A stretch of DNA of 64,000 nucleotides from Luteimonas rhizosphaericola (GTDB lineage: Bacteria > Pseudomonadota > Gammaproteobacteria > Xanthomonadales > Xanthomonadaceae): positions 480,935-544,934 of the forward strand of contig NZ_JARXRN010000021.1 in the NCBI RefSeq assembly GCF_029888045.1. The letters are read 5' to 3'. The notes beneath the pieces were generated by a model. The model searched no databases. It was not told the DNA's origin and saw only the letters and a list, made by a program, of their open reading frames with translations. Below, piece after piece: positions 6,477 through 21,725 of this stretch; position 1 is the stretch's first letter; each line of letters starts with the position of its first letter. The translations under genes were made by a program, and so were the position numbers.

Positions 6477-8516
6477 TCAGGATACCGCGCCAGCCATGCC
6501 GGAGTGGCGCAGCAGCGCATCGATCCGCGGCGCGCGTCCGCGGAAGGCGCGGAAGTTCTCGGCCGCCGGCCGGCTGCCGCCGCGCGCCAGCACCTCGTGG
6601 CGGAAGCGCGCACCGGTCTGCGCCACCTGGTCCGGCGCTTCCTCGAACGCGGCGTACGCGTCGGCGCTCAGCACCTCGGCCCACTTGTAGCTGTAGTAGC
6701 CGGCCGCATAGCCGCCGGCGAAGACGTGGGTGAACTGGTGCTGGAACCGGTTCCACGGCGGCTGCACGTTGACCGCCACCTCGTCGCGCACGCGGTCGAG
6801 CAGCGACTGCACCGGTTCGCGATTGCTCCCCGCGTCCTGGTGCAGGGCCATGTCGAACAGCGCGAACTCCAGCTGGCGCACGGTGAACATGCCGCTCTGG
6901 AAGTTCTTCGCCGCCACCATCGCGTCGAACAGCGCGCGCGGCAGTGGCGCGCCGGTGTCCACGTGCGCGGTCATGGCCTCGACCCGCGCCCATTCCCAGC
7001 AGAAGTTCTCCATGAACTGGCTCGGCAGCTCCACCGCGTCCCATTCGACGCCGTCGATGCCGGACACCCCCGGCTCGCCCACGCGGGTGAGCAGCTGGTG
7101 CAGCCCGTGACCCATTTCGTGGAACAGCGTGGTCACCTCGGCATGGGTGAACGTGGCCGGGTTCCCGTCCACGCCACGGCCGAAGTTGCACACCAGGTGC
7201 ACCACCGGCGTCTGCACCCGGTCGCCGCGGTCGCGGCGGTTGCGGCAGTCGTCCATCCAGGCGCCGCCGCGCTTGCCTTCGCGCGCGTACAGGTCGAGGT
7301 AGAACTGGCCCACCAGCGCGCCGTCGCGGTCGACGATGCGGTAGAAGCGCACGTCCTCGTGCCAGACCGGCGCCTGGTCGGGCTCCACCCGCACCCCGTA
7401 CAGGTCGTGGATCAGGCCGAACAGTCCCTCCAGCACCCTGGGCTCGGTGAAATACCGCTTCACTTCCTGTGCCGAGTAGCTGTAGCGCGACTGGCGCAGC
7501 TTCTCGCTGGCGTAGCCCACGTCCCAGGCCTCGAGCGCGTCGAGCCCGAGCGACTGCTGCGCGAACGCTTCCAGCTCGGCGCGGTCCTGGCGCGCGTGGG
7601 GCTTCGCGCGCGCCGCCAGGTCGCGCAGGAAGCCGAGCACGTCTTCGGGCGTGTCGGCCATCTTCGTGGCCAGCGAATAGTGCGCGTAGCTCGGAAAGCC
7701 GAGCAGCGCCGCGAGTTCGGCGCGCAGGGCCAGGATGCGGTCGATCAGCGCGCTGTTGTCGAGCGCGGGATCGTCGCCGAGTTCGGAGGCGCGCACGGCG
7801 TTGGCGCGATAGAGGGTCGCGCGCAGCTCGCGGTCGTCGGCATAGGCCTGCACCGGCAGGTAGACCGGCATCTGCAGGCCGAGCTTCCAGCCCGCGCGCC
7901 CCTCGCGCTGCGCGGCGGCACGGCAGGCGGCGACCACGTCCGCCGGCAATCCGGCCAGGCGCGATTCGTCCTCGATGTACAGGGCGAAGGCATCGGTGGC
8001 ATCGAGCACGTTCTGCGAATACTTCGCCGACAGGGCCGAAAGCTCCTCGCGGATCGCCGCATGGCGGGCCTTGTCCGCCTCCGGCAGTTCGGCGCCGCCC
8101 AGGCGGAAATCGCGCAGGGCGTTCTCCACCACCTTGCGACGGGCATCGCCATGACCCGCGAACGCCGGCCCATCCGCCAGCCGCTGGTACTGCGCGAACA
8201 GCACCTCGTTCTGGCCCAGCGCGCTCCAGAAGCGCGTCACCGCCGGCAGCGTCTCGTTGTAGGCCGTGCGCAGCGCCGGCGTGCTCGCGACCGCCTCCAG
8301 GTGGGCCACCTGGGCCCATGCGCGCCCGAGCCGGCTGGTGGCCTCGTCCAGCGGCAGGACGAAACGCTCCCAGTCCACCGGCGCCACGGTCTCGGCCGCG
8401 CGCACCGCCGCCGACGCGTCGTCCAGCAGCTGCGCGATCGCGGGGGCGACATGTTCGGGCCGGATCGCGTCGAAGCGGGGCAGGCCGGAGAAGTCCAGCA
8501 GCGGGTTGTCGGTCAT
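6477..8516 (-). CDS. prlC: Oligopeptidase A (M3 metallopeptidase)
   Basis: Cytosolic zinc endopeptidase that degrades oligopeptides and released signal peptides. The zinc motif HEMGH is at residues 466-470, followed by 'GLHQLLTRV', and the third ligand lies in 'QFMENFCWEW', both characteristic of family M3A. At 679 residues it matches the usual length (about 680). The N-terminus 'MTDNPLLDFSGLPRFDAIRP' matches PrlC. It stands alone: 80 bp upstream of the opgG/D start signals downstream and 133 bp from the next minus-strand operon, with a long hairpin in between. Confidence 0.94.
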   Translation of the reverse strand: MTDNPLLDFSGLPRFDAIRPEHVAPAIAQLLDDASAAVRAAETVAPVDWERFVLPLDEATSRLGRAWAQVAHLEAVASTPALRTAYNETLPAVTRFWSALGQNEVLFAQYQRLADGPAFAGHGDARRKVVENALRDFRLGGAELPEADKARHAAIREELSALSAKYSQNVLDATDAFALYIEDESRLAGLPADVVAACRAAAQREGRAGWKLGLQMPVYLPVQAYADDRELRATLYRANAVRASELGDDPALDNSALIDRILALRAELAALLGFPSYAHYSLATKMADTPEDVLGFLRDLAARAKPHARQDRAELEAFAQQSLGLDALEAWDVGYASEKLRQSRYSYSAQEVKRYFTEPRVLEGLFGLIHDLYGVRVEPDQAPVWHEDVRFYRIVDRDGALVGQFYLDLYAREGKRGGAWMDDCRNRRDRGDRVQTPVVHLVCNFGRGVDGNPATFTHAEVTTLFHEMGHGLHQLLTRVGEPGVSGIDGVEWDAVELPSQFMENFCWEWARVEAMTAHVDTGAPLPRALFDAMVAAKNFQSGMFTVRQLEFALFDMALHQDAGSNREPVQSLLDRVRDEVAVNVQPPWNRFQHQFTHVFAGGYAAGYYSYKWAEVLSADAYAAFEEAPDQVAQTGARFRHEVLARGGSRPAAENFRAFRGRAPRIDALLRHSGMAGAVS

Positions 8517-8649: not shown

Positions 8650-10239
8650 TCACTCGGTGGCGGCCTGCGGCACGAACCGCAGGTCGTGGTAGTCGTAGCT
8701 GAAATCCGCCAGCGGCGAGACCGCCTTCATCGTGATCCGCGCCACCCTGCCGTCGGCGTCGAGCGCGAAGGTGACGAAGGCCGGCTCGATCGAGGCGTCG
8801 TCCCAGTCCGCGCGGAAGGTGTCGTACTGCCAGTGGCGCAGCGTGCCGGTCATGCCCGGCGTGCGGGTGAAATCGATCCGCAGGTCGCGGCCGCGGGTGG
8901 CGATCGTCATCGGGCCGTACCAGGGGTCGGCATAGGTACCGGCGTAGCCGGCCGGCGGCAGCGACGGTCGCGAGGTCGTGTTGCGCCGCGCGTCGCCTGC
9001 CGCCTCCAGCGCGGCCAGCCCGCCCTGCAGACGCGCCTGGTTCCACTGCCCGAACGCCGCCACCCAGTCCTTGTGCTCGAAGCCGAGGTAGTGATCCAGC
9101 AGTTCCTGGCCCAGGCCGCGGATCACGTCGACGTCCTCGGCGTTGATCTGCAGCGCGATGCCGAGGTTGCGCTCGGGCACCAGCACCACGAAGGCGAGCA
9201 CGCCGAACACCGCGCCGCCGTGCTGCACGGTGCGCACGCCGCGATAGTCCTGCACGTTCCAGCCCAGCGCGTAGCTGGAGAACTGCGGCGTGAGCGCGTC
9301 GATCGGCGCCGGGTACTGCCGGACCGGCACCGGCACCTGCGGCGTCCACATCTCGCGCGCGGTCGCCTCGCTCCACAGCCGGCCGTCGCCGTCGGGCCGC
9401 GCGCCGAGCGCGAGCTGCACCTGCAGCCAGCGGGCGAAGTCGTTCGCGCTCCAGGACAGCCCGCCCGCCGGCGCGCCGACCTGGCCCAGCCCCTCGCGCT
9501 CGGGCAGCAGCTGCTGCTCGCCCAGCCCGCGCAGCTGCGGATGCAGGCGCGCGTGCGGTTGCGCGCGGTTGGCGGTGGCGAAGCGGCGGTCCTCGCGGCT
9601 CACGGCGGTGGCCATGCCCAGCGGCGCGAAGATGCGCTGCTCGACGAACGACTCCCACGACTGCCCGCTCACTGCTTCCACCAGCTCGCCGGCGACGATG
9701 TAGAGGATGTTGTCGTAGGCGTAGCCGCTGCGGAAGCTGGTCGCCGGTTCGATGTGGCGCAGCGCGCGCACGATGTCGGCGCGGCTGCGCGAGGTGCGCG
9801 GGATGAACAGCAGGTCGCCCGCGCCCAGCCCCAGCCCGCTGCGATGCACCAGCAGGTCGCGCACGGTCATCTCGCGCGTGACCCAGGCGTCGGACATGCG
9901 GAATTCGGGCAGGTGGTCGATCACCCGGTCGTCCCAGCCGAGCTTGCGGTCGTCGACCAGGATCGCCAGCGCGGCGGCGGTGACCGCCTTGCCGGTCGAG
10001 CCGGTGGGAAAGATCGTGTCGGCGTCGACCGGCTCGCTGCCGCCGAGCCGGCGCACGCCGTAGCCTTTCGCGTGCACGATGCGGCCGTCCTCGACGATCG
10101 CGATCGCCATTCCGGGCACGTCGCGGCTGCGCATCGCGGCTTCGACGCGCGCATCGAAGCCCTCGGGCGGCGCGGCGGCGGCGGGCGCCGCGAGGATCGC
10201 CAGCGCCAGCAGGCAGGTCAGGGCCAATGGAATGCGCAT
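8650..10239 (-). CDS. Secreted serine hydrolase of the beta-lactamase/PBP4* family
   Basis: 529 residues with a clear signal peptide (hydrophobic residues 4-20, cleavage near AAA-AP). The catalytic SxxK is S81-T-G-K84 and the second motif YxN is Y175-D-N177; a HGG at the third-motif position is also visible ('VQHGGAVFGV'). The last ~110 residues look like the accessory C-terminal domain (DUF3471-type) seen in such hydrolases. These enzymes include D-aminopeptidases, DD-peptidases and esterases, so the substrate is not set by sequence. Last gene of the operon TonB receptor-dgcN-permease; in that context a D-amino-acid peptidase acting in the periplasm is the most sensible guess. 19 bp separate it from the permease gene. 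Confidence 0.82.
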   Translation of the reverse strand: MRIPLALTCLLALAILAAPAAAAPPEGFDARVEAAMRSRDVPGMAIAIVEDGRIVHAKGYGVRRLGGSEPVDADTIFPTGSTGKAVTAAALAILVDDRKLGWDDRVIDHLPEFRMSDAWVTREMTVRDLLVHRSGLGLGAGDLLFIPRTSRSRADIVRALRHIEPATSFRSGYAYDNILYIVAGELVEAVSGQSWESFVEQRIFAPLGMATAVSREDRRFATANRAQPHARLHPQLRGLGEQQLLPEREGLGQVGAPAGGLSWSANDFARWLQVQLALGARPDGDGRLWSEATAREMWTPQVPVPVRQYPAPIDALTPQFSSYALGWNVQDYRGVRTVQHGGAVFGVLAFVVLVPERNLGIALQINAEDVDVIRGLGQELLDHYLGFEHKDWVAAFGQWNQARLQGGLAALEAAGDARRNTTSRPSLPPAGYAGTYADPWYGPMTIATRGRDLRIDFTRTPGMTGTLRHWQYDTFRADWDDASIEPAFVTFALDADGRVARITMKAVSPLADFSYDYHDLRFVPQAATE

Positions 10240-10258
10240 CGGGACAGTCTCCAGGGAG

Positions 10259-11374
10259 TCAGGCCGGCACGGCGCGCGGCGTACGCGCCCGCCACAGGTG
10301 CCAGGCGCCGAACGTGAGCAGCGGCAGCACGTAGACGAACAGGAACAGCCAGGCCAGCGCGCGGTAGCCGTGGGCGATCAGCGCCACCAGGCCGAAGCGC
10401 TCGGCGACGAAGATCGAACCGACCAGCAGCACCGTCGCCACGCCCAGCCGCGCCACGCGCGGGAACGCGCCAGCGTCGCGGCGCTGCCATGCCCCGGCGA
10501 TGCGTTCGTTGACCGCGTGCACCGCGCCGACCCCGCTTTCGAGCAGCGCCAGGAAGATCATCGCCTGGAAGCCGACGTGCAGCAGCGGCTGCTGCAGGCG
10601 ACGCAGCATGTAGTCCGACGGCAGCGCCTCGCCGGCGATCCCGGGCGCCCAGGCCAGCATGCAGGCGAAGAAGGCGATCGCCGGCGCGATCGCCAGCGGC
10701 CCGGCCAGCAGGCCGGCGGCCACCGCGTCGCGGCGGCGGGTGAAGTGGCGCAGCATCGGCAGGATCGCCACCGCACCGACGATGTTGTAGCAGGCGTAGG
10801 TCAGTCCGCCCGCGGCCCAGCCATCGACCGGCTGCGGCGTGCCGATCGCCTGCACGATGCGGTCTCCGAACGTGGTGAACGCGACCACCAGGAACAGCGC
10901 GTACATCGCGTAGAGGAACACCGAGGCCCAGCCGAACAGCCGCTCCACCGAGCGGTTGCCGAATGCCACCACCCCACCGATCGCCAGCACCAGCGCCAGG
11001 GTGCCCACGAGCGGCGGCCATCCCGTCAGCGCCGACACCACCGCGCCGGCGGCCGCGCCGAACACCGCGAGGATCAGCACCATGAACACCACGTAGGCCA
11101 GTTCGAACACCACCCACCCCGGCCCCACCAGCCGGGCGAAGAAACTGCGGTAGTCGTAGCTGCCGGTGGCGAAGGCGAAGACGAAGGTCAGCGCGCACAC
11201 CGCGCTCCACACGAGCATCGCCAGGCCCAGGCCGAGCAGGCCGCCCTGCGCCCCGCTGGGCAGGAAGTACTCGGCCAGTTCGCGTCCGGTGGCGTAGCCG
11301 CCGCCGATCACGAACCCCTTGAACGCCAGCCCCGGCAGCAGGAAGCGCTGGAAGCGCGTGGGCACGGAGGTCAT
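10259..11374 (-). CDS. YkvI-type multi-spanning permease (APC superfamily)
   Basis: 371-residue membrane protein with about ten hydrophobic segments and a signature start 'GLAFKGFVIGGGYATGRELA', which resembles the unwound first helix (GxGxxxGRE) of the YkvI-like branch of amino-acid/polyamine transporters. The arginine-rich loop 'LRHFTRRRDAV' falls after the fifth or sixth helix. No family member's substrate is firmly known to me. It sits 18 bp after dgcN and 19 bp before a secreted serine hydrolase, so uptake of an amino acid or small peptide released in the periplasm is likely. Confidence is high for the class of protein and low for the substrate. Confidence 0.75.
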   Translation of the reverse strand: MTSVPTRFQRFLLPGLAFKGFVIGGGYATGRELAEYFLPSGAQGGLLGLGLAMLVWSAVCALTFVFAFATGSYDYRSFFARLVGPGWVVFELAYVVFMVLILAVFGAAAGAVVSALTGWPPLVGTLALVLAIGGVVAFGNRSVERLFGWASVFLYAMYALFLVVAFTTFGDRIVQAIGTPQPVDGWAAGGLTYACYNIVGAVAILPMLRHFTRRRDAVAAGLLAGPLAIAPAIAFFACMLAWAPGIAGEALPSDYMLRRLQQPLLHVGFQAMIFLALLESGVGAVHAVNERIAGAWQRRDAGAFPRVARLGVATVLLVGSIFVAERFGLVALIAHGYRALAWLFLFVYVLPLLTFGAWHLWRARTPRAVPA

Positions 11375-11392
11375 CGCCGCGTGCCCGTCCGG

Positions 11393-12433
11393 TCACGCCA
11401 GGCAGGCTTCGACCAGGCGGTCGAACGCCTCGCCGCCGCGCACCGGGTCGGCCACCGGCAGGCCGAGGCGCGCGGCGGTGGCGTCGATCGCCTCGCGCGC
11501 GGCCGCCGCGTCGAGCGCGGCGGTGTTGAGGCTCACGCCGGCGCAGCGGATCTCCGGATTCGTGCGCGACCCCAGCCGCAGCGCCAGGTCGATCGTCTCC
11601 TCCAGCGAGGGCAGCGGGTAATGCGGATGACCGAGCACGCGCTCGCGGCCGTGCGCATGGCAGACCACGACCACGTCCGGCTGGCTGCCGTGCAGCAGCG
11701 CCAGCGACACGCCCGCGTAGGCCGGGTGCGAGAGCGACCCCTGGCCCTCGATCACGTCCCAGTGCGCGGGATCGGCATCGGGCGACAGGGTTTCCGCGGC
11801 GCCGGCGGCGAAATCGGCCACCACCGCATCCATCGGCACGCCCGCGCCGGCGATCAGGATCCCGGTCTGGCCGGTCGCACGGAAGTCGGCGTCCACGCCG
11901 CGCGCGGCGAACGCGCGCGCCAGCGACAGCGCGGTGTACTTCTTGCCCAGCGCGCAGTCGGTGCCCACGGTGAGCAGGCGGCGGCCGGAACGCTTGCGCC
12001 CGCTCGCCACCGGCAGCCCGGGCGGCGGCTCGCGCACGTCGATCAGGCGCCGCCCGTGCACCACCGCGGCGTTGCGCAGCGGTTCGATGTCGGCCAGCCG
12101 CGCGTGCATGCCGCCGATCAGGTCCAGCCCGGCCTGCAGCGCCTCGAGCAGCGGCGCGACCCAGGTCGAGGGAATGCGGCCGCCGGGATTGGCCACGCCG
12201 ATCACCATCGATCGCGCGCCCAGCATGCGCGCCTGCGCGGGCGAGAGGAACGGCAGCCCGGTGCTCACCGTGGCACCGGTGCAGGCGTACTCGCCCACGC
12301 AGCGCTCGCCGGCCCAGTCGCGCAGCCCGAACGCGGTCTTGGCGTAGCCCGGCTCGGTCACGTCGCCCAGGAACAGCAGGTAGGGCTGCGGCAGCGCTTC
12401 GGTCTCGCGCAGCGCGGGAACGGCGTGTGGCAT
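11393..12433 (-). CDS. dgcN: DgcN-type (DUF1611) D-glutamate N-acetyltransferase
   Basis: 346-residue cytosolic protein of the DUF1611 family. It has the two-part family layout: an N-terminal Rossmann-like half ('PYLLFLGDVTEPGYAKTAFG', then 'VIGVANPGGRIPSTWV') and a P-loop-like half with 'GTDCALGKKYTALSLA' (residues 157-172) and 'DVIEGQGSLSHPAYAGVSL'. From memory of recent work, DgcN acetylates D-glutamate and the partner DgcA racemises the N-acetyl product to the L form, giving a D-Glu catabolic route. DgcA is encoded in the sister operon of this locus, which supports the call. Start ATG at 12433 is the first plausible start after the receptor gene, 53 bp away. Confidence 0.78.
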   Translation of the reverse strand: MPHAVPALRETEALPQPYLLFLGDVTEPGYAKTAFGLRDWAGERCVGEYACTGATVSTGLPFLSPAQARMLGARSMVIGVANPGGRIPSTWVAPLLEALQAGLDLIGGMHARLADIEPLRNAAVVHGRRLIDVREPPPGLPVASGRKRSGRRLLTVGTDCALGKKYTALSLARAFAARGVDADFRATGQTGILIAGAGVPMDAVVADFAAGAAETLSPDADPAHWDVIEGQGSLSHPAYAGVSLALLHGSQPDVVVVCHAHGRERVLGHPHYPLPSLEETIDLALRLGSRTNPEIRCAGVSLNTAALDAAAAREAIDATAARLGLPVADPVRGGEAFDRLVEACLA

Positions 12434-12486
12434 GCGGCGTGGACCCCGGTCCGGTGGGTGTTGGCCGCCCGCGCGGGCGGCGCGGG

Positions 12487-14838
12487 TCAGAAGCGGAAGT
12501 CGATCTCGAGCCCGAACGTGCGCGGCTGCAGCGGCACGCCGGCGACATGCGAACGGGTCCCGGTGAGCGCGCCGTCCATCGGCGTCATCGTCAGGTATGC
12601 ATCCTCGCCGGTCACGTTGTTGACGTAGGCGCGCACTTCCCAGTTGTCCCGCCCGATCCCGGCGTACAGGTCGAGCGAGCGGTAGCTGTCGAGCTCCAGC
12701 GGCGCGGTGATCTCGTCCGGCTGCAGGATCGTCGATGGATCGCCCGGCGCGGTGACGCGCTGGCGCTCGGTGGTCTCGTTGAGCCGGTCGCCGGCGAAGC
12801 GCAGCGCCGCGCCCACCTGGCCGCCGAGGCCGCCGGCGGTCATGAACGCATACTCGGCCGTGGCCGCCCATGACAGTTTCGGCGAATACGGCATGCGATC
12901 GCCCGCCAGGCCGGACCAAAGGATTACGTCGAACAACGGATTGCCCAGCTCGTCGGCCTGCGGAATCACCGTGGGCGTGAAGTCGTTCTTGATGCTGGCA
13001 TCGGTGTACGCCGCGTTGAGCCCGAGCTGCAGGGCATCGGTGGCGCGGAACTGCGCGGTCAGTTCCAGGCCCTCGCTGGTCGCCTCGCCGCCGTTGACCA
13101 GGCCGCCCACGCCGTTGAACGAGGACGCCACCTGGATGTCCTCCCAGTCGATCCGGAACGCCGCCAGGTCGAGCGTCACCCGGCGGTCGGCGAACTGCGA
13201 CTTGAGGCCGATCTCGTAGCTGTCGAGCATCGACGAGTCGACCTGCGGCGGCATGCCGGCCAGCGCCACGTTCGGCCCGCCCGGCTGGTAGCCGGTGGCC
13301 ACGCGCGCGTACAGCATCACGTCCTCGGCCAGCTTGAACTGCGGGCTCAGGCTCCAGGTGAACACGTCCTCGGTGGATTCCCCGGGGGTGTCGGCGATCG
13401 GCGCCAGGATGCCGGTCGGCACGTTCTGGCTGAACCACTGGTCGTTGCGCGCCTGGCGCAGGCCGGCGTCGATCTTGAAACGCTCGCCGATGCGCCAGGA
13501 GCCGTTGGCGAACAGCGCGACCTCCTCGTAGGTGCTGGGCAGGTTGATGATCGCCAGCGTGCTGAAGTCCGACAGCGCCGCGGGCAGCGGCGAGCCGTCG
13601 CGCAGGCCGAGCCACGCGAACTGGCTCTGCAGCGCGTCCTCCCGGGTGTAGAACGCGCCGACCATCCATTCGAACGGGCCGCCGCTGCTCGAGGTGAGCC
13701 GGAACTCCTGCGTCACCTTGTCCATGTCGTAGCGATAGCGCACGAACGAGCTGCCCGGCTCGGGCAGACCCAGCAACAGGTCGGCCACTTCGCCGAACTG
13801 GATGGTGGAATCGATCTGGTCCTCCGCCGTGCTTTCCGACCAGCCCGTCGCGGAGATGAAGTTGCCCCAGCCCAGGTCCCAGTCGAAGGTCAGCGCGGCC
13901 AGGGTCAGGTCCTTGGCGAACGGCCGCGGCTGCCAGGCCAGGTCGTCGTCCTCGCCGAACAGCGGCGTGAGGGTCCCCGGCGCGAGCGCCACGCCGGCGC
14001 GGTCGTCGCTGCGGATGCGCTGGTGCAGCACCGACAGCCCCGCGTCCACCACGTCGCCCTCCCACGACAGCGCGGCACGCGCACCGATCTGCTCGCCGCC
14101 GTTGATGTCCTCGCGGCCGTCGACGGCGTTGTCGGTATAGCCCGGCAGGCCGTTGCGCGCGAAGCTCACGCGCAGGCCCAGGCGTTCGTCCTGCAGCGGC
14201 AGGGTCACGCCGAAGCGCGCGTTCCAGTCCTGGTCGCCGCCGCGCACCGAGCGCAGGCCGAAGCCGAGGCGGGTTTCCTCGCCCAACGCATCCGGCGCCC
14301 GGGTCACGTACTTGAGCAGGCCGCCGATCGCACCGGCGCCGTACAGCGTGCCCTGCGGCCCGCGCAGCACCTCGATGCGGCTGATGTCGTAGGGCAGCAG
14401 GTCGAGCATCAGCGTGCTCGCGCCCTGGTAGATGCCGCTCGATCCGACCGGCACCTCGTCGATGTAGGTCGCCACCGTGGCGCCCGAGGACAGCGCGGCG
14501 ATGCCGCGCAGCGACACCCGGGTCAGGCCCGGGCTGCCCTCGTTCTGCACCTGCAGGCCGGGAATGAAGGCGGCGTAGTCGGAGAGCGACACCGCGCCCA
14601 GGTTCTCCAGCTGGCGCTCGTTGAGGACGGTGATCGCGGCTCCGACCTCGCGCACGTTCTCCACGCGCTTGTTGGCGGTTACCAGCACGGTGTCGAGTTC
14701 CACCGCCTCGTCGGTCGCCGCGGCGTCGGCCGCTGCGTCCTGGGCGAGCGCGGGCGCCGCGGCGCAGGCGAGGGTCGCCGCGATCGCGAGCGACAGCGGG
14801 GAGCGGTACCACGGGCGGTCGGTCTGGGACGCGTGCAT
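12487..14838 (-). CDS. TonB-dependent outer-membrane receptor
   Basis: 783 residues: signal peptide ending near 'AAPALAQD' (residue 33), TonB box-like 'VELDTVLVTANK' (about 46-57), plug domain with 'RIEVLRGPQGTLYGAGAIGG', then a 22-strand type barrel ending in '...TFGLEIDFRF' with the terminal phenylalanine needed for outer-membrane insertion. It belongs to the FecA-like/CUB-style receptors common in Xanthomonadaceae, which take up many kinds of nutrients besides iron. First gene of an operon with dgcN, a permease and a serine hydrolase, so the ligand is probably a D-amino-acid-containing peptide or muropeptide. A promoter with a palindromic operator lies 78-115 bp upstream. Confidence 0.92.
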   Translation of the reverse strand: MHASQTDRPWYRSPLSLAIAATLACAAAPALAQDAAADAAATDEAVELDTVLVTANKRVENVREVGAAITVLNERQLENLGAVSLSDYAAFIPGLQVQNEGSPGLTRVSLRGIAALSSGATVATYIDEVPVGSSGIYQGASTLMLDLLPYDISRIEVLRGPQGTLYGAGAIGGLLKYVTRAPDALGEETRLGFGLRSVRGGDQDWNARFGVTLPLQDERLGLRVSFARNGLPGYTDNAVDGREDINGGEQIGARAALSWEGDVVDAGLSVLHQRIRSDDRAGVALAPGTLTPLFGEDDDLAWQPRPFAKDLTLAALTFDWDLGWGNFISATGWSESTAEDQIDSTIQFGEVADLLLGLPEPGSSFVRYRYDMDKVTQEFRLTSSSGGPFEWMVGAFYTREDALQSQFAWLGLRDGSPLPAALSDFSTLAIINLPSTYEEVALFANGSWRIGERFKIDAGLRQARNDQWFSQNVPTGILAPIADTPGESTEDVFTWSLSPQFKLAEDVMLYARVATGYQPGGPNVALAGMPPQVDSSMLDSYEIGLKSQFADRRVTLDLAAFRIDWEDIQVASSFNGVGGLVNGGEATSEGLELTAQFRATDALQLGLNAAYTDASIKNDFTPTVIPQADELGNPLFDVILWSGLAGDRMPYSPKLSWAATAEYAFMTAGGLGGQVGAALRFAGDRLNETTERQRVTAPGDPSTILQPDEITAPLELDSYRSLDLYAGIGRDNWEVRAYVNNVTGEDAYLTMTPMDGALTGTRSHVAGVPLQPRTFGLEIDFRF

Positions 14839-15149
14839 CGGTGTTCTCTCCCCCGGAGGCGTGACTGGACGGTCGGGACCCGGCGGGCGGCCTGCGCGGG
14901 CGGCGGCCGGATATCCTGATCAGGGATCATGATCCTAATCAGAGAATTGTCAACACGTCCGGAAAATGCGGCGCCCGCGCCGGGCGGACGGGCGCGTGGC
15001 GGCTCTACGAATCACGGCGACCGCCCCGCCACCGCTGCGCCGTTTCAAGCCGCGACACCCTGCGAGCGGCGCGGAACACGGGACATCCCTGGCTGACGGC
15101 GACGTTGCCGCCGCCGGGCTTAGGCTGGTGCAGCGCGTCCACGTCGCCA
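14839..15149. other. Intergenic region, 311 bp
   Basis: No gene is supported here. The part near the TonB receptor gene (14916-14953) holds its promoter and operator. The remaining ~190 bp to the stop of the DUF819 gene is GC-rich, codes for nothing convincing in either strand and shows no clear terminator. Confidence 0.6.
14916..14953 (-). promoter_or_regulatory. Promoter and palindromic operator of the TonB receptor-dgcN operon
   Basis: On the minus strand, TTGACA (14953-14948), a 16-bp spacer and CATGAT (14931-14926) form a sigma70-type promoter. An inverted repeat, CTGATCAGG-N9-CCTAATCAG on the plus strand (14916-14942), covers the spacer and -10. Its centre is the perfect palindrome GGATCATGATCC. 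Nearly the same arrangement precedes the sister operon at 19477-19515. A protein bound here would block RNA polymerase; the divergent XRE/cupin regulator is the obvious candidate. Confidence 0.72.
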
Positions 15150-16298
15150 TCAGCCCCCGGTGATCCGGAACACGCCGATCCCGACGAAGTTGCCCAGCGC
15201 ATAGCCGAGCACGCCGGTGGCGACCGCCGGGACCGCCAGGCGCCGCCAGCCGAACAGCACCGCGAACGCGACCGCGATCGGCGGACCGCCGATGCAGGCG
15301 GTGGACGCCACGATGATCTCGGCATGGTTGAGCCGCAGCAGGCGCGCGCCGGCGAGGATGAAGACCAGGTGCACCGCGAAGATCACCAGTACGTACGCGA
15401 AGAGCGACGGCGCCGCGCCCAGCATCGCGCCCAGGTCGGCACCGGCGCCGAGCACGGCGAAGAACAGGTATATCAGCAGGGTCGCCGCCAGTTCCGGGCC
15501 CGCGATGTCCTTCAGCCAACGGCGGCCGAAGGTGGCGATCGCGACCATCAGGGCCGTCGTGTAGAGGATCGCGTAGTGCGCATGCCCCATCGCAGCCGCG
15601 ATCGCGGCGCCGGCGGCGCAGGCCAGCGCCGCAAGCGCGAGCGCCAGCGCGAGGTCGAGCACCGTCGGTACGCGTTGCGCCGGCCCCACCGCATCGCCCC
15701 CACCCACCAGCTGCTCCGATCGCCATCCGAAGCGGCGCTGGAACCATGGCCAGGACGCGGACGCACCCACCGCCAGCAGGTAGCCCAGTCCGACCACGTT
15801 GTCGATCGCCACACCCGCGGCCAGTGCGGTCGGTTCGCGGAAACCGATCGCCTCGGCGACCGCGGCGAAATTGATCGAGCCGCCGACGTAGGTGGCGCTG
15901 AACACGGCCGCGTACTGCGCCTCCAACGGCCCCAGGTCGAGCCACGCCGCACCGAGCCACGCGCCGGCCACCACGCCCGCGGCGCCGAACGCGAACGCCG
16001 CCAGCGTACGCCCGCCTTCGACCACGATCCCCAGCAGGTCGGCGCGGATCAGGTACAGCGCGATCGCCAGCGGCACCAGGTAGGTCCAGATCGCGCCGTA
16101 CACCGGAGCCGACGCCGGGATCACGCGCAGCTGCGCCAGGACGATCGCGAGCGCGATCACCAGCATCACGCCCGACACCCGCTTGCCCAGGCGGGTGCGC
16201 TCCAGTCCCGCGCCGATCGCGGCGACGGCGAAGAACACCGCCAGCAGCGCGAACGCGTTGTCCGCCGCGATCAGCGCGCTGGCGGGCGCGGCTGTCAT
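15150..16298 (-). CDS. DUF819 family membrane permease
   Basis: 382 residues with about ten membrane segments and the family's repeated 'GGSINFAAVAEAIG' and 'ACIGGPPIAVAFAV' motifs, each in a re-entrant Gly-rich stretch and placed symmetrically in the two halves. DUF819 proteins (YjcL-type) are predicted transporters and are often found beside dipeptide epimerases and peptidases. The start ATG at 16298 overlaps the dgcA stop (ATGA), so expression is coupled to dgcA. With dgcA and a secreted hydrolase in the operon, transport of a D-Glu-containing dipeptide or N-acyl-glutamate across the inner membrane is inferred. Confidence 0.83.
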   Translation of the reverse strand: MTAAPASALIAADNAFALLAVFFAVAAIGAGLERTRLGKRVSGVMLVIALAIVLAQLRVIPASAPVYGAIWTYLVPLAIALYLIRADLLGIVVEGGRTLAAFAFGAAGVVAGAWLGAAWLDLGPLEAQYAAVFSATYVGGSINFAAVAEAIGFREPTALAAGVAIDNVVGLGYLLAVGASASWPWFQRRFGWRSEQLVGGGDAVGPAQRVPTVLDLALALALAALACAAGAAIAAAMGHAHYAILYTTALMVAIATFGRRWLKDIAGPELAATLLIYLFFAVLGAGADLGAMLGAAPSLFAYVLVIFAVHLVFILAGARLLRLNHAEIIVASTACIGGPPIAVAFAVLFGWRRLAVPAVATGVLGYALGNFVGIGVFRITGG

Positions 16299-17311
16299 GC
16301 CGCCGCGTCGGCGATGTCGGCGTGCACGCCCCAGACGGTGTCCGGGCAGTGGATCAGCCCGTCTTCGTACACCACCCCCGGGCTGCGGTCGCGGCGCAGG
16401 AACACCGGGCCGTCGAGGTCGACGATGTCGCACAGCTGGCCGAGCACGAATGCCGGCGCCGCGGCCAGGCTGGTGCCGCACATGTTGCCGACCATCACCT
16501 GCTTGCCGAGCGCGCGCGCGCGACGCGCCATCATCAGGCCTTCGGTGAGCCCGCCGCACTTGTCGAGCTTGATGTTGATCACGTCGAAACGGTGGTGGCG
16601 CGCCTCGAGCTCGGTCAGGTCGAGGATGCTCTCGTCGGCGGCGAAGGGCGGCACGTGCACGATGCCGTCGAGTTCGTGTTCGCGCCCGCGCACGCAAGGC
16701 TGCTCGAGCAGCGCCACGCGCGACTCGACCAGCGCCGGCATCAGCGCCGGCAACGTGTCTCCGCCGTAGCCCTGGTTGGCGTCGACCCCGATCCACAGCG
16801 CCGGGCAGCGCGCGCGCACCGCGCGCACGCGCGCCGCATCGAGCGACGCCTCGCCGGTGAGCTTGAGCTTGAGCGCGCGCGCGCCGGCGTAGGCGGCGGC
16901 GCGGTCGGCCATGGCCTCCGGCGCGTCCGCACCCACGGTGAAGGTGGTCAGCAGCGGGCGCGGCGGGCCGAGCCCGGCCAGTTCCCACACCGGCACTCCG
17001 GCGCGCCGCGATTCGAGCTCCCACAGCGCGCAGTCGAGCGCGTTGCGCGCGCCGCCGGCCGGCAGCACCTTGCGCAGCGTGGCGCGGTCCAGCCCGGCGG
17101 CGATCCGCGGCCGCAGCGCCTCGAGCGTGGCGCGCATGCCGTCGGGCGCATCGTCGTTGTAGTACACGCCCGCCGCTTCGCCGCGGCCGACGTGCGGCCC
17201 GTCGCGGAGCGTGACCACCAGCGCGGGCATCGCCTCGAACACGCGGCCGGCGATGCGGAACGGTTCGGCCAGCGGAAGGGGTTCGAGATGCAGCTGCAGT
17301 TCGACCGGCAC
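16295..17311 (-). CDS. dgcA: DgcA-type enolase-superfamily N-acetyl-D-Glu racemase / dipeptide epimerase
   Basis: 338 residues of the muconate-lactonising subgroup of the enolase superfamily. Visible active-site set: K148-L-K150 on strand two, metal ligands D177, E203 and D226, and the opposing base K248 in 'NIKLDKCGGLTEG'. These pair of lysines is typical of racemases and epimerases. A D-L-D at 298-300 resembles the DxD that in L-Ala-D/L-Glu epimerases holds the substrate ammonium, so dipeptide epimerisation is the main alternative to N-acetyl-D-glutamate racemisation; dgcN in the partner operon favours the latter. I chose GTG at 17311 because GGAGG lies 8 nt upstream. Overlaps the DUF819 gene by 4 nt and follows the hydrolase gene at 74 bp. 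Confidence 0.84.
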   Translation of the reverse strand: MPVELQLHLEPLPLAEPFRIAGRVFEAMPALVVTLRDGPHVGRGEAAGVYYNDDAPDGMRATLEALRPRIAAGLDRATLRKVLPAGGARNALDCALWELESRRAGVPVWELAGLGPPRPLLTTFTVGADAPEAMADRAAAYAGARALKLKLTGEASLDAARVRAVRARCPALWIGVDANQGYGGDTLPALMPALVESRVALLEQPCVRGREHELDGIVHVPPFAADESILDLTELEARHHRFDVINIKLDKCGGLTEGLMMARRARALGKQVMVGNMCGTSLAAAPAFVLGQLCDIVDLDGPVFLRRDRSPGVVYEDGLIHCPDTVWGVHADIADAAA

Positions 17312-17385
17312 GGCGCGGGCCTCCGGGTGGACGGGTCGTGGCGGGAAGGCGCCCGGCGGCACGCGGCCGCCGGGCACGTGGTGGA

Positions 17386-19404
17386 TCAGTAGTTGGCGCC
17401 GAAGCCGATCACGTGCTGGACGATGCCGGTCCACAGCACGAACACGCAGGCCAGCGCCAGCAGCAGCGCCCACAGCTTGGCCAGCAGCCGGCGCTTGCCG
17501 CGTAGCACGTGCCAGGCGTTCCACAGCGCGACCGCGGCGCCGAGCGGCAGCACGATCGTGGCGAACAGCCGCAGCGCGATGATCAGGCCGTCGTTGGACG
17601 GGCTGGTCATCTCCAGCTGGCTGAGCATCGCCACCACCAGCCCCAGCACCGCGCCCATCGCCAGCAGCACCAGCAGCGCGGCGATGCGCACCAGCCGGTG
17701 CATGCGCGCATCCGTGCCCTGCAGCCGGTACGGCGCGCGATAGTAGCGGCGCACCAGCGCCGAGACCGGCCAGGCGAGCACGGTCAGCAGCAGGATCGCC
17801 AGGCTCGCGACCAGCAGCGGCAGCGCCATCGCCTGCCACGCCGACAGGCGCTGGAACACCATGATCGGGGCATAGGGCTCCATGCTGAAGCGCACGACCC
17901 GGCCGTCGACCACGTCGGCCGCCAGCCGGTCGCTGCCGCTGGTGTCCTGCCACAGGTACGGCGACACCTCGCGCCAGGTCTTCGGTGCGCCGCCCGGGCC
18001 GAGCGCGAGGGTCACGGCGATCGTGCCGTCCTCGTTCGCGACCACCTTCACCGGGCCGAGCAGGTTGGCCAGCGACAGCACGTTGCTGTCCGGCCGCCGG
18101 CTGCTGGTGTAGGTGCCGGCGATCTGCTGCGCGTGCTCCCGCGCCACGTCCTCCGCGACGCCGGGACCGGCCGGCGTGCCGTCGCCGGGCAGGTAGCGAT
18201 CGGCGAAGCCGCGCGCGAGCGCACTGCGGATGTGGCCGGTCGCACCGTCGCGCCCGGAGCTGTTCATCGACACGAAGATGCCGACGCCGTCGTCCGGGAA
18301 CAGCTGCAGGTCGCTGTGGAACCACTGCGTGTCGCCGCCGTGCGCGATGGCGCGGTGGCCGTTCACCGAGGTCTCGTAGAAGCCGAGCATCATCCGGTTG
18401 AGCGGGCCGACCGAAGCCTGCCCTGTGGTGTGCATCTGCTCGGCCGTCGCCGCGCCGAGGATGCGCGCATCGCCGTACGCGCCGCGCTGCAGGTGGGCGA
18501 TCATGAAGCGCGCCATGTCCGCGCCGGTCGCGGCGAGGCTGCCGGCCGGCGCCAGGCTGATGAACTCGTATTCCTTAGCCTCGCCGTCGGATGCGCGCGA
18601 GTAGCCTTTGGACATGCCGTCCAGCAGCGCCTGCGGCAGCGGCTGGCGGAAGCTCGACCGCGCCATGCCCAGCGGCTCGAAGATGTGGCGATCGATGTAG
18701 TCGTCGAACGGTTCGCCGGACACGCGCTCGACAATGTAGCCGGCCAGCGCGGTGGCGTAGTTCGAGTACGCCGGGGTGGTGCCCGGCGCATGGATGCGCT
18801 CCGGGATCCAGTGCTTGAGCGCGTCGCCCAGCGGCACGATCTCGTCCGTGCGCGCGGTGATCAGGCCGCGGATCTGCTCCTCGAAGCCGGCGGTGTGGGT
18901 CATGATCTGGCGCAGGGTGACCGGCGTGCCCGCGTAGGCGGGCATCTCGAAGTCGAGGTACTGGTTGACGTCGGCGTCGAGGTCGAGCTTGCCCTGCTCC
19001 ACGAGCTGCATCACCGCGGTCCAGGTGAACAGCTTCGACACCGAGCCGGGGCGGAACAGGGTGGCCTCCGGATCGACCGGCGCGCGCGCAGCCAGGTCCG
19101 AATAGCCGTAGCCCTTCTGCACCAGCACCTCCCCGTCCTTGACCACCACGACCACCGCGCCGGCGATGTCGCCCGCGGCCAGCGCGTAGGGCATGAAGCC
19201 GTCCAGCCAGGCTTCCACGTCGCTGCGCACCAGCGTTCCGGGACCGGCATCCGGCAATGGCAGCGACGCGACGTCGCCATCGTTGTCGGCGGGCAGGACC
19301 GTGGGCGGCACCGCGTCGGGGGCGACCGCGGCCTCCTGCGCCGCGGCGGTGGCCATGCCGGCGGCCAGCAGCCAGCCGCTCAGGATCAGGGGAATCACGC
19401 GCAT
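17386..19404 (-). CDS. Serine hydrolase (beta-lactamase family) with C-terminal membrane domain
   Basis: 672 residues: signal peptide (1-22, 'GWLLAAGMATAAAQ'), a serine hydrolase domain with S121-V-S-K124, Y213-S-N215 and 'HGGDT' as the third motif, then four or so membrane segments in the last ~150 residues. The same build occurs in PBP-like hydrolases of unknown substrate that are anchored by their C-terminus, with the catalytic domain in the periplasm. I chose the ATG at 19404 (GGAG 8 nt upstream, directly before the signal peptide); an in-frame start further upstream would place the operator inside the coding region. It heads the operon with dgcA and DUF819, so release of D-Glu or a D-Glu dipeptide from a larger peptide is likely. 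Confidence 0.85.
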   Translation of the reverse strand: MRVIPLILSGWLLAAGMATAAAQEAAVAPDAVPPTVLPADNDGDVASLPLPDAGPGTLVRSDVEAWLDGFMPYALAAGDIAGAVVVVVKDGEVLVQKGYGYSDLAARAPVDPEATLFRPGSVSKLFTWTAVMQLVEQGKLDLDADVNQYLDFEMPAYAGTPVTLRQIMTHTAGFEEQIRGLITARTDEIVPLGDALKHWIPERIHAPGTTPAYSNYATALAGYIVERVSGEPFDDYIDRHIFEPLGMARSSFRQPLPQALLDGMSKGYSRASDGEAKEYEFISLAPAGSLAATGADMARFMIAHLQRGAYGDARILGAATAEQMHTTGQASVGPLNRMMLGFYETSVNGHRAIAHGGDTQWFHSDLQLFPDDGVGIFVSMNSSGRDGATGHIRSALARGFADRYLPGDGTPAGPGVAEDVAREHAQQIAGTYTSSRRPDSNVLSLANLLGPVKVVANEDGTIAVTLALGPGGAPKTWREVSPYLWQDTSGSDRLAADVVDGRVVRFSMEPYAPIMVFQRLSAWQAMALPLLVASLAILLLTVLAWPVSALVRRYYRAPYRLQGTDARMHRLVRIAALLVLLAMGAVLGLVVAMLSQLEMTSPSNDGLIIALRLFATIVLPLGAAVALWNAWHVLRGKRRLLAKLWALLLALACVFVLWTGIVQHVIGFGANY

Positions 19405-19476
19405 CGGGCGGTCTCCGGTCGGGGACGGGGCGGGCGCAGGAGCTGGCCGGGACGCGGGCGACCGCGGTCGGTTATC

Positions 19477-19515
19477 CTGATTTGGCGATAATGATCCCAA
19501 TCAGAGAATTGTCAA
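19477..19515 (-). promoter_or_regulatory. Promoter and palindromic operator of the serine hydrolase-dgcA-DUF819 operon
   Basis: On the minus strand, TTGACA (19515-19510), a 16-bp spacer and CATTAT (19493-19488) form a promoter. The inverted repeat CTGATTTGG-N10-CCCAATCAG (plus strand 19477-19504) overlies the spacer and -10. The sequence AATCAGAGAATTGTCAAC at 19499-19516 is shared almost base for base with 14937-14954, 4.5 kb away. The pair defines a small regulon; the divergent regulator gene starts 165 bp to the right. Confidence 0.74.
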
Positions 19516-19614
19516 CCAGTGCCGAAAGTCCCTGTGGCCGATGCCCCGCCTGGGCGCCTGGCAGATGCGTGGTGTCCGCCGTGCGCCTGCCCTTCCCACG
19601 CGTCGCCTCGTGAG

Positions 19615-19627
19615 GCGATGATGATCC
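19615..19627. promoter_or_regulatory. Possible operator half-site before the regulator gene
   Basis: GCGATGATGATCC matches 12 of 13 bases of GCGATAATGATCC in the operator at 19485-19497. It lies about 53 bp before the regulator start and could allow autoregulation, but only the core half is present, with no matching second arm. Confidence 0.3.
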
Positions 19628-19679
19628 TCCACGGGACACGCCACCCGCCAGCGGTCGCCACTCCGGAGATTCGGCAAGG

Positions 19680-20441
19680 ATGACATCGCCACACCCCACC
19701 ATCGGCGGACTGCTGCGCTCGCTGCGGGCGCGCAAGGGCTGGACGCTCAAGCAGATGAGCGAGCATTCGGGCATCCCGCTCTCGACCCTGTCCAAGGTCG
19801 AGCACGACCGGCTGACCCTGACCTACGACAAGCTGCTGCAGCTCAGCCAGCGCCTGAACCTGCGCATGTCCGAACTGTTTGCCGAACAGGCCGAGGCGCC
19901 GGAGCCGCCGGTGACCGCGCGCCGCAGCATCGGGCGCATCGAGGACGCGATCCGCGTCAACACGCCCAACTACGACTACTACTACCTGTGCCCGGAGCTG
20001 CGCCGCAAGCGCATGATCCCGGTGCTGACGCGCGTGCGCGCCAAGACCATCGAGGAATTCGGCGAACTGGTCCGGCATTCGGGCGAGGAGTACATCCACG
20101 TCCTGGAAGGCCGCATGGAAGTGCACACCGAGTTCTACGACCCGATGGTGCTGGAAACCGGCGAATCGGTGTACATCGACTCGAACATGGGCCACGCCTA
20201 CATCGCCGCCGAGGGCTGCGACGAGGTGCTGTTGCTTGGCGTGTGCTCGAGCGCGGACGAGCAGCTGCTGGAATCGCTCATGACGCTGCACGGCGAGGAG
20301 GGCGCCGCGCGCCAGGCGTCGCCGCAGCGGCTGCACGCGCCCCCGCGCGACCCGCGCACGGCCCCTGCGCGCCGCACGGCCGCGGCGGCGAAAACCGCCG
20401 CGGCGAAGAACGCGAAGAACAAAAAGGCCGCGCGTCGCTGA
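19680..20441 (+). CDS. XRE-family regulator with cupin sensor domain
   Basis: 253 residues. An HTH_XRE domain fills residues about 5-65 ('TLKQMSEHSGIPLSTLSKVE' is the helix-turn-helix) and a cupin barrel about 90-190 ('EEYIHVLEGRMEVHTEFYDP', 'DSNMGHAYIAAEGCDEVLLL'), the architecture of small-molecule responsive repressors such as PuuR. The last ~30 residues are an Ala/Lys-rich, histone-like tail, which is not part of the usual family and may add non-specific DNA contact. It is transcribed divergently from the hydrolase-dgcA-DUF819 operon and is the only regulator in the locus, so it probably binds the operators at 14916 and 19477. Confidence 0.88.
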   Translation: MTSPHPTIGGLLRSLRARKGWTLKQMSEHSGIPLSTLSKVEHDRLTLTYDKLLQLSQRLNLRMSELFAEQAEAPEPPVTARRSIGRIEDAIRVNTPNYDYYYLCPELRRKRMIPVLTRVRAKTIEEFGELVRHSGEEYIHVLEGRMEVHTEFYDPMVLETGESVYIDSNMGHAYIAAEGCDEVLLLGVCSSADEQLLESLMTLHGEEGAARQASPQRLHAPPRDPRTAPARRTAAAAKTAAAKNAKNKKAARR

Positions 20442-20561
20442 ACGCGCTGAACGCCGCCCGCGTGTCGCAGGCGTGATGCCGTCGGCGCACGCCGGCGCGA
20501 TCACGGTGCATTGATCGCCGCTGCCGCAGCCTCGGACCTCCCGAGCGCAGCGAGCACCCCC

Positions 20562-21725
20562 ATGCAGGCCTTGACCTACCAGGGATCGAAGGACGTCCGC
20601 GTCGAGACCGTCCCCGACCCGATCCTCGTCGAATCCGACGACATCATCCTCCGCGTCACCGCGACCGCCATCTGCGGCTCGGACCTGCACATCTACCGCG
20701 GCAAGATCCCGGGCATGGAGGACGGCGACATCCTCGGCCACGAGTTCATGGGCATCGTCGAGGAGGCCGGCCGGGACGTCACGAAAGTGAAGGTGGGCGA
20801 CCGCGTCGTGATCCCGTTCGTGATCGCCTGCGGGCGCTGCTTCCACTGCCTGCTCGACGAATTCGCGGCCTGCGAGACCACCAACACCGGGCCCGGCGCG
20901 GCCATGAACCGCAAGTCGATGAAGCCCCCGGCCGCACTGTTCGGCTACAGCGCGCTGTACGGCGGCGTGCCCGGCGGACAGGCGGAACTGGTGCGGGTGC
21001 CGAAGGCGAACGTGGGTCCGCTGGCGGTGCCCGATGCGCTGTCCGACGAGCAGGTCCTGTTCCTGTCGGACATCCTGCCCACCGGCTACCAGGCCGCGGT
21101 CAACGCGGGGATCAAGCCCGGTTCGAGCGTGGCGATCTTCGGCGCCGGCCCCGTCGGCTACATGTCGGCGGCGTGCGCACGCATGCTGGGCGCCGAGACG
21201 ATCTACATGGTCGACCACAATCCGTACCGCCTGGAGTTCGCGCGCCAGGCCTATGGCGTGCTGCCGATCAACTTCGACGACGAGGACGATCCTGCGCAGA
21301 CCATCGTCGACGCCACCGGCGGGCGCGGCGTGGACGCGTCGATCGAGGCGGTCGGCTTCGAGGCCAAGGGCAGCGCGACCGAAACCGTGCTCACCACGCT
21401 CAAGCTCGAGGGCTCCAGCGGCAAGGCGCTGCGCCAGTGCATCGCCGCCACCCGCCGCGGCGGCACGGTGAGCGTGCCCGGCGTGTACACGGGCTTCATC
21501 CACGGCTTCCTGTTCGGCGATGCGTTCGACAAGGGCCTGACCTTCAAGATGGGCCAGACCCACGTGCAGGGCCTGATGCCCGAACTGCTGGACGCGATCG
21601 GCGAGGGCAAGCTGTCGCCGGAGATCATCATCTCGCACCGCATGTCGCTGGCCGATGCGGCCAAGGGCTACCAGATGTTCAACGACCGCGAGGACGAATG
21701 CCGCAAGGTCGTGCTGACGCCGTGA
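20562..21725 (+). CDS. Zinc-dependent alcohol/formaldehyde-type dehydrogenase
   Basis: 387-residue medium-chain dehydrogenase. Catalytic zinc ligands are visible in 'AICGSDLH' (C38, H43) and 'GHEF' (H60, E61); the structural zinc site is C90-x2-C93-x2-C96-x7-C104. The nucleotide fold starts with '[20 protein letters not shown]'. The length and the '[19 protein letters not shown]' region resemble glutathione-independent formaldehyde dehydrogenase and its relatives rather than classic alcohol dehydrogenase. Start ATG at 20562 gives the family N-terminus '[15 protein letters not shown]'; an earlier in-frame codon adds a non-conserved tail. 120 bp separate it from the XRE/cupin gene; no sign of functional link. 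Confidence 0.86.

Follow-up and report, generated by a model that had tools for sequence, protein, structure and literature searches.

Bacterial cell walls and certain peptide natural products hold D-glutamate in bound form. By what route might a bacterium bring it from outside the outer membrane and turn it into L-glutamate? The question is raised by a locus at positions 8650-20441 of a 64,000-nt stretch of Luteimonas rhizosphaericola DNA (contig NZ_JARXRN010000021.1; hereafter the window), in which genes for a TonB-dependent outer-membrane receptor (TBDR), two S12 serine hydrolases (H1 and H2) and two permeases stand together with genes for relatives of the D-glutamate enzymes DgcN and DgcA. 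The reading favoured here is that its two operons, which carry the same operator, probably let the cell import and cut D-glutamate-containing peptides and convert the D-glutamate to L-glutamate. What the sequence itself shows is the gene order, the shared operator, the intact S12 motifs of H2, and the retention of both gene set and operator in many relatives.

Two operons behind one promoter-operator

All eight named genes are found at the expected coordinates, seven on the minus strand and one, divergent, on the plus strand, which confirms the gene set of an earlier note on this DNA and its division into two operons, each with its own hydrolase and permease. Operon 1 is headed by H2 (17386-19404), an S12 serine hydrolase with C-terminal membrane helices, followed by a DgcA-like enolase-superfamily protein, a predicted N-acetyl-D-glutamate racemase (16295-17305, with a GTG start codon chosen), and ends with a DUF819 permease of the CPA/AT clan (15150-16298; PF05684, 163 bits). 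H2 and dgcA are separated by 80 bases, and dgcA and the DUF819 gene overlap by 4 bases. Operon 2 begins with the TBDR gene (12487-14838; PF00593 and PF07715) and continues with a DgcN-like protein (DUF1611), a predicted D-glutamate N-acetyltransferase (11393-12433), a YkvI-type permease (10259-11374) and H1 (8650-10239), a secreted-like hydrolase of the beta-lactamase fold with a DUF3471 domain; the successive gaps are 53, 18 and 19 bases. The 311-base gap between the DUF819 and TBDR genes contains the operator of operon 2. Both minus-strand runs are predicted to be operons from spacing and strand. The plus-strand gene, divergent from operon 1, encodes an XRE-family regulator with a cupin domain (19680-20441; PF12844 and PF07883).

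The sequence TTGACAATTCTCTGATTnGGATCATnATC occurs on the minus strand at 19487-19515 and at 14925-14953, one copy ahead of each operon. Both 29-base sites match the pattern without mismatch, and at operon 2 TTGACA runs into CTGATTnGGATCATnATC; the pattern appears to resemble a -35 box that leads into an inverted repeat. The 29-base pattern drawn from both sites has exactly two matches at up to three mismatches in the 3,898,385-base genome, while its reversed control has none. A 21-base core that leaves out TTGACA finds the same two sites at the same tolerance, and no further sites that would indicate a wider regulon, although more diverged sites would escape such a scan. Upstream of the regulator gene, GGCGATGATGATCC at 19614-19627 is a partial copy of the operon 1 operator (14 bases at 93%); it is possibly a site of self-control, or a chance match.

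Conservation of the locus and its operator in relatives

The 80 loci compared are the best by DgcN similarity among the matches listed; 77 of at least 13 kb were counted, and L055, L094 and L104 were dropped as shorter. Presence was scored by tblastn at E 1e-8, with no minimum identity, when the aligned segments added up to at least 40% of the query length. H1 is a homologue of H2; where their matches overlapped, the better one was credited, and a count for either may therefore include a distant S12 gene. Across the 77 loci, H2 is present in 75, dgcA in 72, the XRE gene in 70, the TBDR in 65, the YkvI-type permease in 63 and H1 in 61. Further genes are a POT peptide permease (44), a D-aminoacylase-like (deacylase-like) protein (34), two clusters of M19 dipeptidase (M19a and M19b, 19 loci each), another amidohydrolase (10) and DUF819 (7). 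The strict order H2, dgcA, TBDR, dgcN is found in 53 of the 77, with YkvI and H1 as well in 39 and with the divergent XRE gene besides in 37. Receptor, hydrolases, dgcN/dgcA and permeases are kept together in many relatives.

The operator was sought in these loci at up to 8 mismatches of 26 fixed bases, from 260 bases upstream of each gene to 20 bases into it. It stands ahead of the genes that lead operons, namely H2 (57/75), the TBDR (36/65) and M19b (11/19), the last a dipeptidase gene often placed directly ahead of the receptor. None is seen ahead of the inner genes dgcA (0/72), YkvI (0/64), H1 (0/61), POT (0/44), deacylase-like (0/34), M19a (0/19) and DUF819 (0/7); it is found ahead of dgcN, likewise an inner gene, in 3/77 and of the divergent XRE gene in 1/70. 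The reversed pattern gave no site ahead of any gene class, and a matrix trained on the loci places the operator in the same way among the matches listed. Because this footprint recurs ahead of operon-leading genes in relatives, the shared operator is not due to chance; an origin by chance or artefact was rejected on the two-site genome scans together with the footprint, and the same two results bear out the proposal that one operator ties both operons.

Within the family, DgcN matches of any kind occur in 65 of 297 genomes and window-type dgcN (at least 67% identity) in 55, one of which (G292) has its copy in pieces. H2 at E 1e-120 is found in 64 of the 297; of these, 47 have it at no less than 58% identity and 17 at 43-48%. 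Each of the 47 also belongs to the 55 with dgcN, and 46 have both genes no more than 12 kb apart on one contig; in G176, H2 and dgcN are on different contigs. The hosts of the 80 loci include Lysobacteraceae (Xanthomonadaceae), Rhodanobacteraceae, Steroidobacteraceae, Sphingomonadales and one Caulobacteraceae genome (Phenylobacterium), so a unit confined to Xanthomonadaceae is not what is found. Two loci (L055 and L061) come from metagenome-assembled contigs titled Chthoniobacterales (Verrucomicrobiota), and their dgcN nests with Lysobacteraceae in the tree; binning errors are more likely here than transfer.

The DgcN-like and DgcA-like enzymes

The DgcN-like protein carries both DUF1611 domains above cut-off (PF07755, 249 bits; PF17396, 72 bits). 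Its solved relatives 7xrj, 2obn and 2g0t have in common a GTD(C or M)xxGK motif and an EGQG segment. A tree built from 90 DgcN sequences unites all 81 of the window type (the window included) in one group with support 99/99. The remaining nine come from the same family and do not form a single group: L122 and L123 are nearer the 81, seven stand apart, and L121 is on a long branch. Five further proteins of the window clade score 423-455 bits on the DgcN equivalog model NF041892. Among the more diverged DgcN proteins, two of three tested pass its cut-off (523.6 and 492.1 bits) and one fails (448.1); of two diverged DgcA proteins, one passes its own (407.2) and one fails (361.2). The DgcA-like protein of the window is nearer the DgcA model (NF042940, 344.4 bits) than the L-Ala-D/L-Glu epimerase model (PRK15129, 200.8 bits, below the cut-off of 343).

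Since both window proteins score below their equivalog cut-offs, they are named DgcN-like and DgcA-like, and an activity on D-glutamate is inferred from a sister clade. The earlier identification as DgcN and DgcA is therefore sound for the families, by domains and by model preference, and does not extend to strict equivalogs.

The S12 hydrolases

H1 matches PF00144 (217 bits) and PF11954 (97 bits) and has an N-terminal hydrophobic segment; H2 matches PF00144 above cut-off (223 bits). S12 serine peptidases are recognised by the motifs SxxK, YxN and HxG. In H2 these are S121xxK124, Y213xN215 and H355xG357, and they are invariant in 40 aligned H2 sequences. A profile search of the PDB with H2 was topped by the DL-peptidase Lip3 at 152.6 bits (1.3e-43), with the Pyrococcus S12 peptidase homologue 2qmi next and almost level at 151.8 bits (2.3e-43). 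By these scores H2 appears about equally like the two, and its fold does not give its substrate.

In the mlr system, MlrB belongs to the S12 hydrolases and MlrD to the POT proteins. An assignment of H1 and H2 to the MlrB type was set aside, as the POT-adjacent S12 protein of Sphingosinicella microcystinivorans is only 27-30% identical to them. The genes of that organism include 31 S12 matches; at one locus (L142) an S12 gene adjoins a POT gene and an M19-like gene, and this is possibly part of an mlr region.

The permeases and the slot between dgcA and the receptor

Several of the nearest relatives of the YkvI-type permease are named YkvI family membrane proteins, the others being hypothetical or nameless, and at E 0.001 the protein matches no Pfam or NCBIfam model. 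Its AlphaFold2 model (mean predicted local distance difference test score, pLDDT, 86.2) has Foldseek and VIA matches to AdiC, ApcT, LAT, MhsT and AgcS, and an amino-acid-transporter fold of the LeuT/APC type is predicted from it.

The other permease of the locus carries PF05684 in place of the PTR2 domain of POT proteins. In the relatives, POT proteins were confirmed by PTR2 and TIGR00924 above cut-off (2/2 tested) and M19 dipeptidases by PF01244 (2/2 tested). The slot between dgcA and the receptor in the 53 collinear loci holds POT with the deacylase-like gene in 17, POT in 15, DUF819 with the deacylase-like gene in six, M19b in four, POT with M19b in three, two POT matches with M19b in one, and DUF819 alone in one (a L. 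kalidii locus arranged like the window); nothing was recognised there in six. DUF819 and POT are found together in none of the 77 loci (hypergeometric p 0.0018, the loci being related to one another). The DUF819 loci fall in four places on the DgcN tree (window/L032/L034; L037; L044; L067/L088/L105) and lie near POT loci, as with L037 beside the POT-bearing L050. This scatter, together with the lack of co-occurrence, suggests that POT and DUF819 have repeatedly replaced one another, and therefore that they may carry the same kind of cargo.

DUF819 occurs in 6 of 143 genomes of the class, the window genome included. The available part of one report places DUF819 and GltS together in the CPA/AT clan and states no function for DUF819 (PMC8396727), and a meningococcal variant is described in which DUF819 is paired with an M15 peptidase (PMC12671195). 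The window genome has another DUF819 gene, which scores better (L167; contig C20, near 595487); it adjoins CstA, and a gene for an OPT oligopeptide transporter lies some 2 kb away. In one relative DUF819 adjoins CstA and S9, with OPT next. Such neighbourhoods fit peptide use, though the cases are few.

The D-aminoacylase-like protein of the relatives has no match in the window genome, while matches are found in 26 of 41 genomes of the genus and identities of at least 82% in 10 of the 41. A search of the DUF819-TBDR gap in the window for a remnant of the gene gave nothing beyond chance (best E 0.41). The window genome has one M19 dipeptidase elsewhere. Its lineage may use substrates that need no N-acyl-D-residue step, or another enzyme. 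The alignment of the deacylase-like protein to 3gip ends before the arginine that sets N-acyl-D-glutamate specificity (PMC12017989). The protein of one locus (L055) begins like a secreted protein, but a hydropathy scan found no segment over threshold.

A possible route from peptide to L-glutamate

If the two operons act as proposed, the TonB receptor would carry a D-glutamate peptide across the outer membrane, and H1 and H2 would cut amide bonds at D-residues in the periplasm. The YkvI-type protein, given its predicted amino-acid-permease fold, would take up free D-glutamate or a small product, and DUF819 would import cargo similar in kind to that of the POT peptide permease whose place it takes. 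In the cytoplasm, the DgcN-like protein would acetylate D-glutamate with acetyl-CoA, the DgcA-like protein would racemise the N-acetyl-D-glutamate, and a general deacetylase would release L-glutamate. The XRE-cupin protein would bind both operators, with its cupin domain sensing a metabolite of the pathway.

In the earlier note the locus was read as one for scavenging D-glutamate and murein peptides. The layered layout, the operator and the D-glutamate centre of that reading are borne out by conservation across the 77 loci, and the murein part does not follow. Nothing singles out murein, because the POT permeases, M19 dipeptidases and D-aminoacylase-like protein of the relatives and the likeness of H2 to Lip3 point to D-residue peptides generally. 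Murein is one possible source of the peptides, and D-glutamate-bearing lipopeptides are another. A bolder version, put forward tentatively and held to be rather doubtful, makes the locus a utilisation locus for D-residue peptides, a kind for which the literature search gave no description and which would be comparable in logic to a polysaccharide utilisation locus. It would feed on murein peptides and D-glutamate-bearing nonribosomal lipopeptides from other bacteria, and DUF819 would be a peptide or acidic amino-acid importer replacing POT.

Alternative explanations

Four observations weigh against the reading of an operator-linked pathway for D-glutamate peptides. No operator site is found at 18 of the 75 H2 genes or at 29 of the 65 receptors; for several of these receptors the operon is led by another gene. 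On the equivalog models, the DgcN-like protein reaches 438.8 bits where the cut-off is 480, and the score of the DgcA-like protein falls short of a cut-off of 400. An alternative reading is that free D-glutamate or N-acyl-D-glutamate alone is the cargo, with the hydrolases and receptor as accessories and peptides not the main cargo. Nine more diverged dgcN loci of the same family (L115-L123; dgcN at 49-58% identity) speak for it. In six of the nine, dgcN and dgcA are same-strand neighbours, 0-83 bases apart, and in four a D-aminoacylase-like gene is present. A GltS or dicarboxylate symporter was seen in three of five loci partly scanned (ten neighbours): L116 has GltS within the same run of genes, L115 has it beside dgcN, and L122 has a dicarboxylate symporter beside dgcA, while no symporter was seen among the neighbours scanned in L120 and L121. 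Loci with such symporters look built for free D-glutamate. Two of three DgcN proteins tested among the nine loci pass the cut-off, and the membership of DUF819 in the clan of GltS (PMC8396727) would suit the same cargo. Against this, the window receptor has no match in eight of the nine (L121 has one at 25%, along with a YkvI match at 40% nearby; an unrelated receptor would be missed), and no close H2 is found in any, the S12 matches being at 33% in L118 and 22-25% in L122 and L123. Window-type loci, for their part, nearly always contain S12 hydrolases and often POT and M19, and free D-glutamate as the sole cargo is accordingly judged unlikely.

Two other explanations keep the peptides and change either the enzyme or the source. 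Murein dipeptides are recycled in E. coli by YcjG and MpaA, and the DgcA-like protein could be an L-Ala-D/L-Glu epimerase in a route of that kind: it belongs to the same enolase superfamily, its second best solved match is the E. coli L-Ala-D/L-Glu epimerase 1jpd, and the POT and M19 proteins of the relatives suit dipeptides. The preference for the DgcA model over the epimerase model (344 vs 201 bits) and the company of dgcN in 72 of the 77 loci, which a dipeptide epimerase would not need, make this quite improbable. The remaining proposal overlaps with the favoured one and differs in the source of the peptides: they would come from competitors, as D-residue lipopeptides or as other nonribosomal peptides, and the locus would thus feed and detoxify at once. 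It draws on the resemblance of H2 to Lip3, a DL-peptidase that cuts syringafactin (PMC13188892), and on the D-aminoacylase-like protein in 34 of the 77 loci. The deacylase is, however, absent from the window, H2 is about as close to 2qmi as to Lip3 and its fold is silent on substrate, and the single deacylase-like sequence inspected (L055) has no hydropathy segment over threshold despite its secreted-like start; competitors' peptides as the specific source are thus given only a small chance. Of these readings, that of D-glutamate-containing peptides remains the best supported.

Were it correct, many Lysobacteraceae and sphingomonads would have kept a dedicated, regulated path that runs from the outer membrane to L-glutamate and extends a pathway described so far mainly from marine environments. 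It would also suggest probable substrates for DUF819 and YkvI, two membrane families of unknown role, and provide genetic handles on which members of a community eat D-residue peptides. In the bolder version, the components of the D-residue-peptide utilisation locus would be a receptor, DL-peptidases, a swappable POT or DUF819 permease, an amino-acid permease, stereo-inverting enzymes and a dedicated operator.

Neighbouring genes

An M3 oligopeptidase gene close to oligopeptidase A (6477-8516) follows H1 on the same strand and is near the locus in 2 of the 77 relatives. A zinc alcohol dehydrogenase gene (20511-21725), downstream of the XRE regulator on the same strand, is there in 1 of the 77; its best NCBIfam match is glutathione-independent formaldehyde dehydrogenase, at 213 bits against a cut-off of 637.

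Comparison with known systems

Lip3 of Paenibacillus (PDB 9sn1) shares with H2 the S12 domain and a similar length (663 and 672 residues), and the alignment range covers H2 residues 57-672 with 442 aligned. The identity is only 20-22%, and the profile alignment of the two ends at position 502, short of the membrane part. In the mlr microcystin-degradation cluster, too, peptide hydrolases are combined with MlrD, a protein that resembles oligopeptide transporters (PMC6563193). The cluster differs in that the POT-adjacent S12 gene of Sphingosinicella microcystinivorans, itself only a candidate mlrB, has no more than the low identity to H1 and H2 given above.

The more diverged loci of the same family are like the window in dgcN, dgcA and, in four of nine, the D-aminoacylase-like gene. 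They differ by the adjacency of dgcN and dgcA (6/9) and by the symporter (3/5), whereas the window type has a receptor, S12 hydrolases and peptide permeases.

No publication on the two-operon unit was found by title and abstract, in a search with limited coverage of the subscription literature and with one query swamped by papers on N-acetylglucosamine. The suggestion that the unit is possibly undescribed may hold for the arrangement as a whole; its core is the known DgcN-DgcA pathway (EC 2.3.1.312 and EC 5.1.1.25). The first description of DgcN and DgcA reportedly had a marine focus and included a regulator, DgcR. From the available parts of later reports, the pair is very likely the main D-glutamate route of Shewanella psychrophila WP2 (PMC10845958) and is listed under both EC numbers in a Rhodobacteraceae strain (PMC11747546). 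The window has enzymes of the same families, a DUF1611 protein and a DgcA-type member of the enolase superfamily, but these score below the equivalog cut-offs and are encoded in separate operons. To that pathway the window adds a TonB receptor, two S12 hydrolases, two permeases and an XRE-cupin regulator, and it is the addition of genes for uptake and hydrolysis to the known DgcN-DgcA pathway that is new here.

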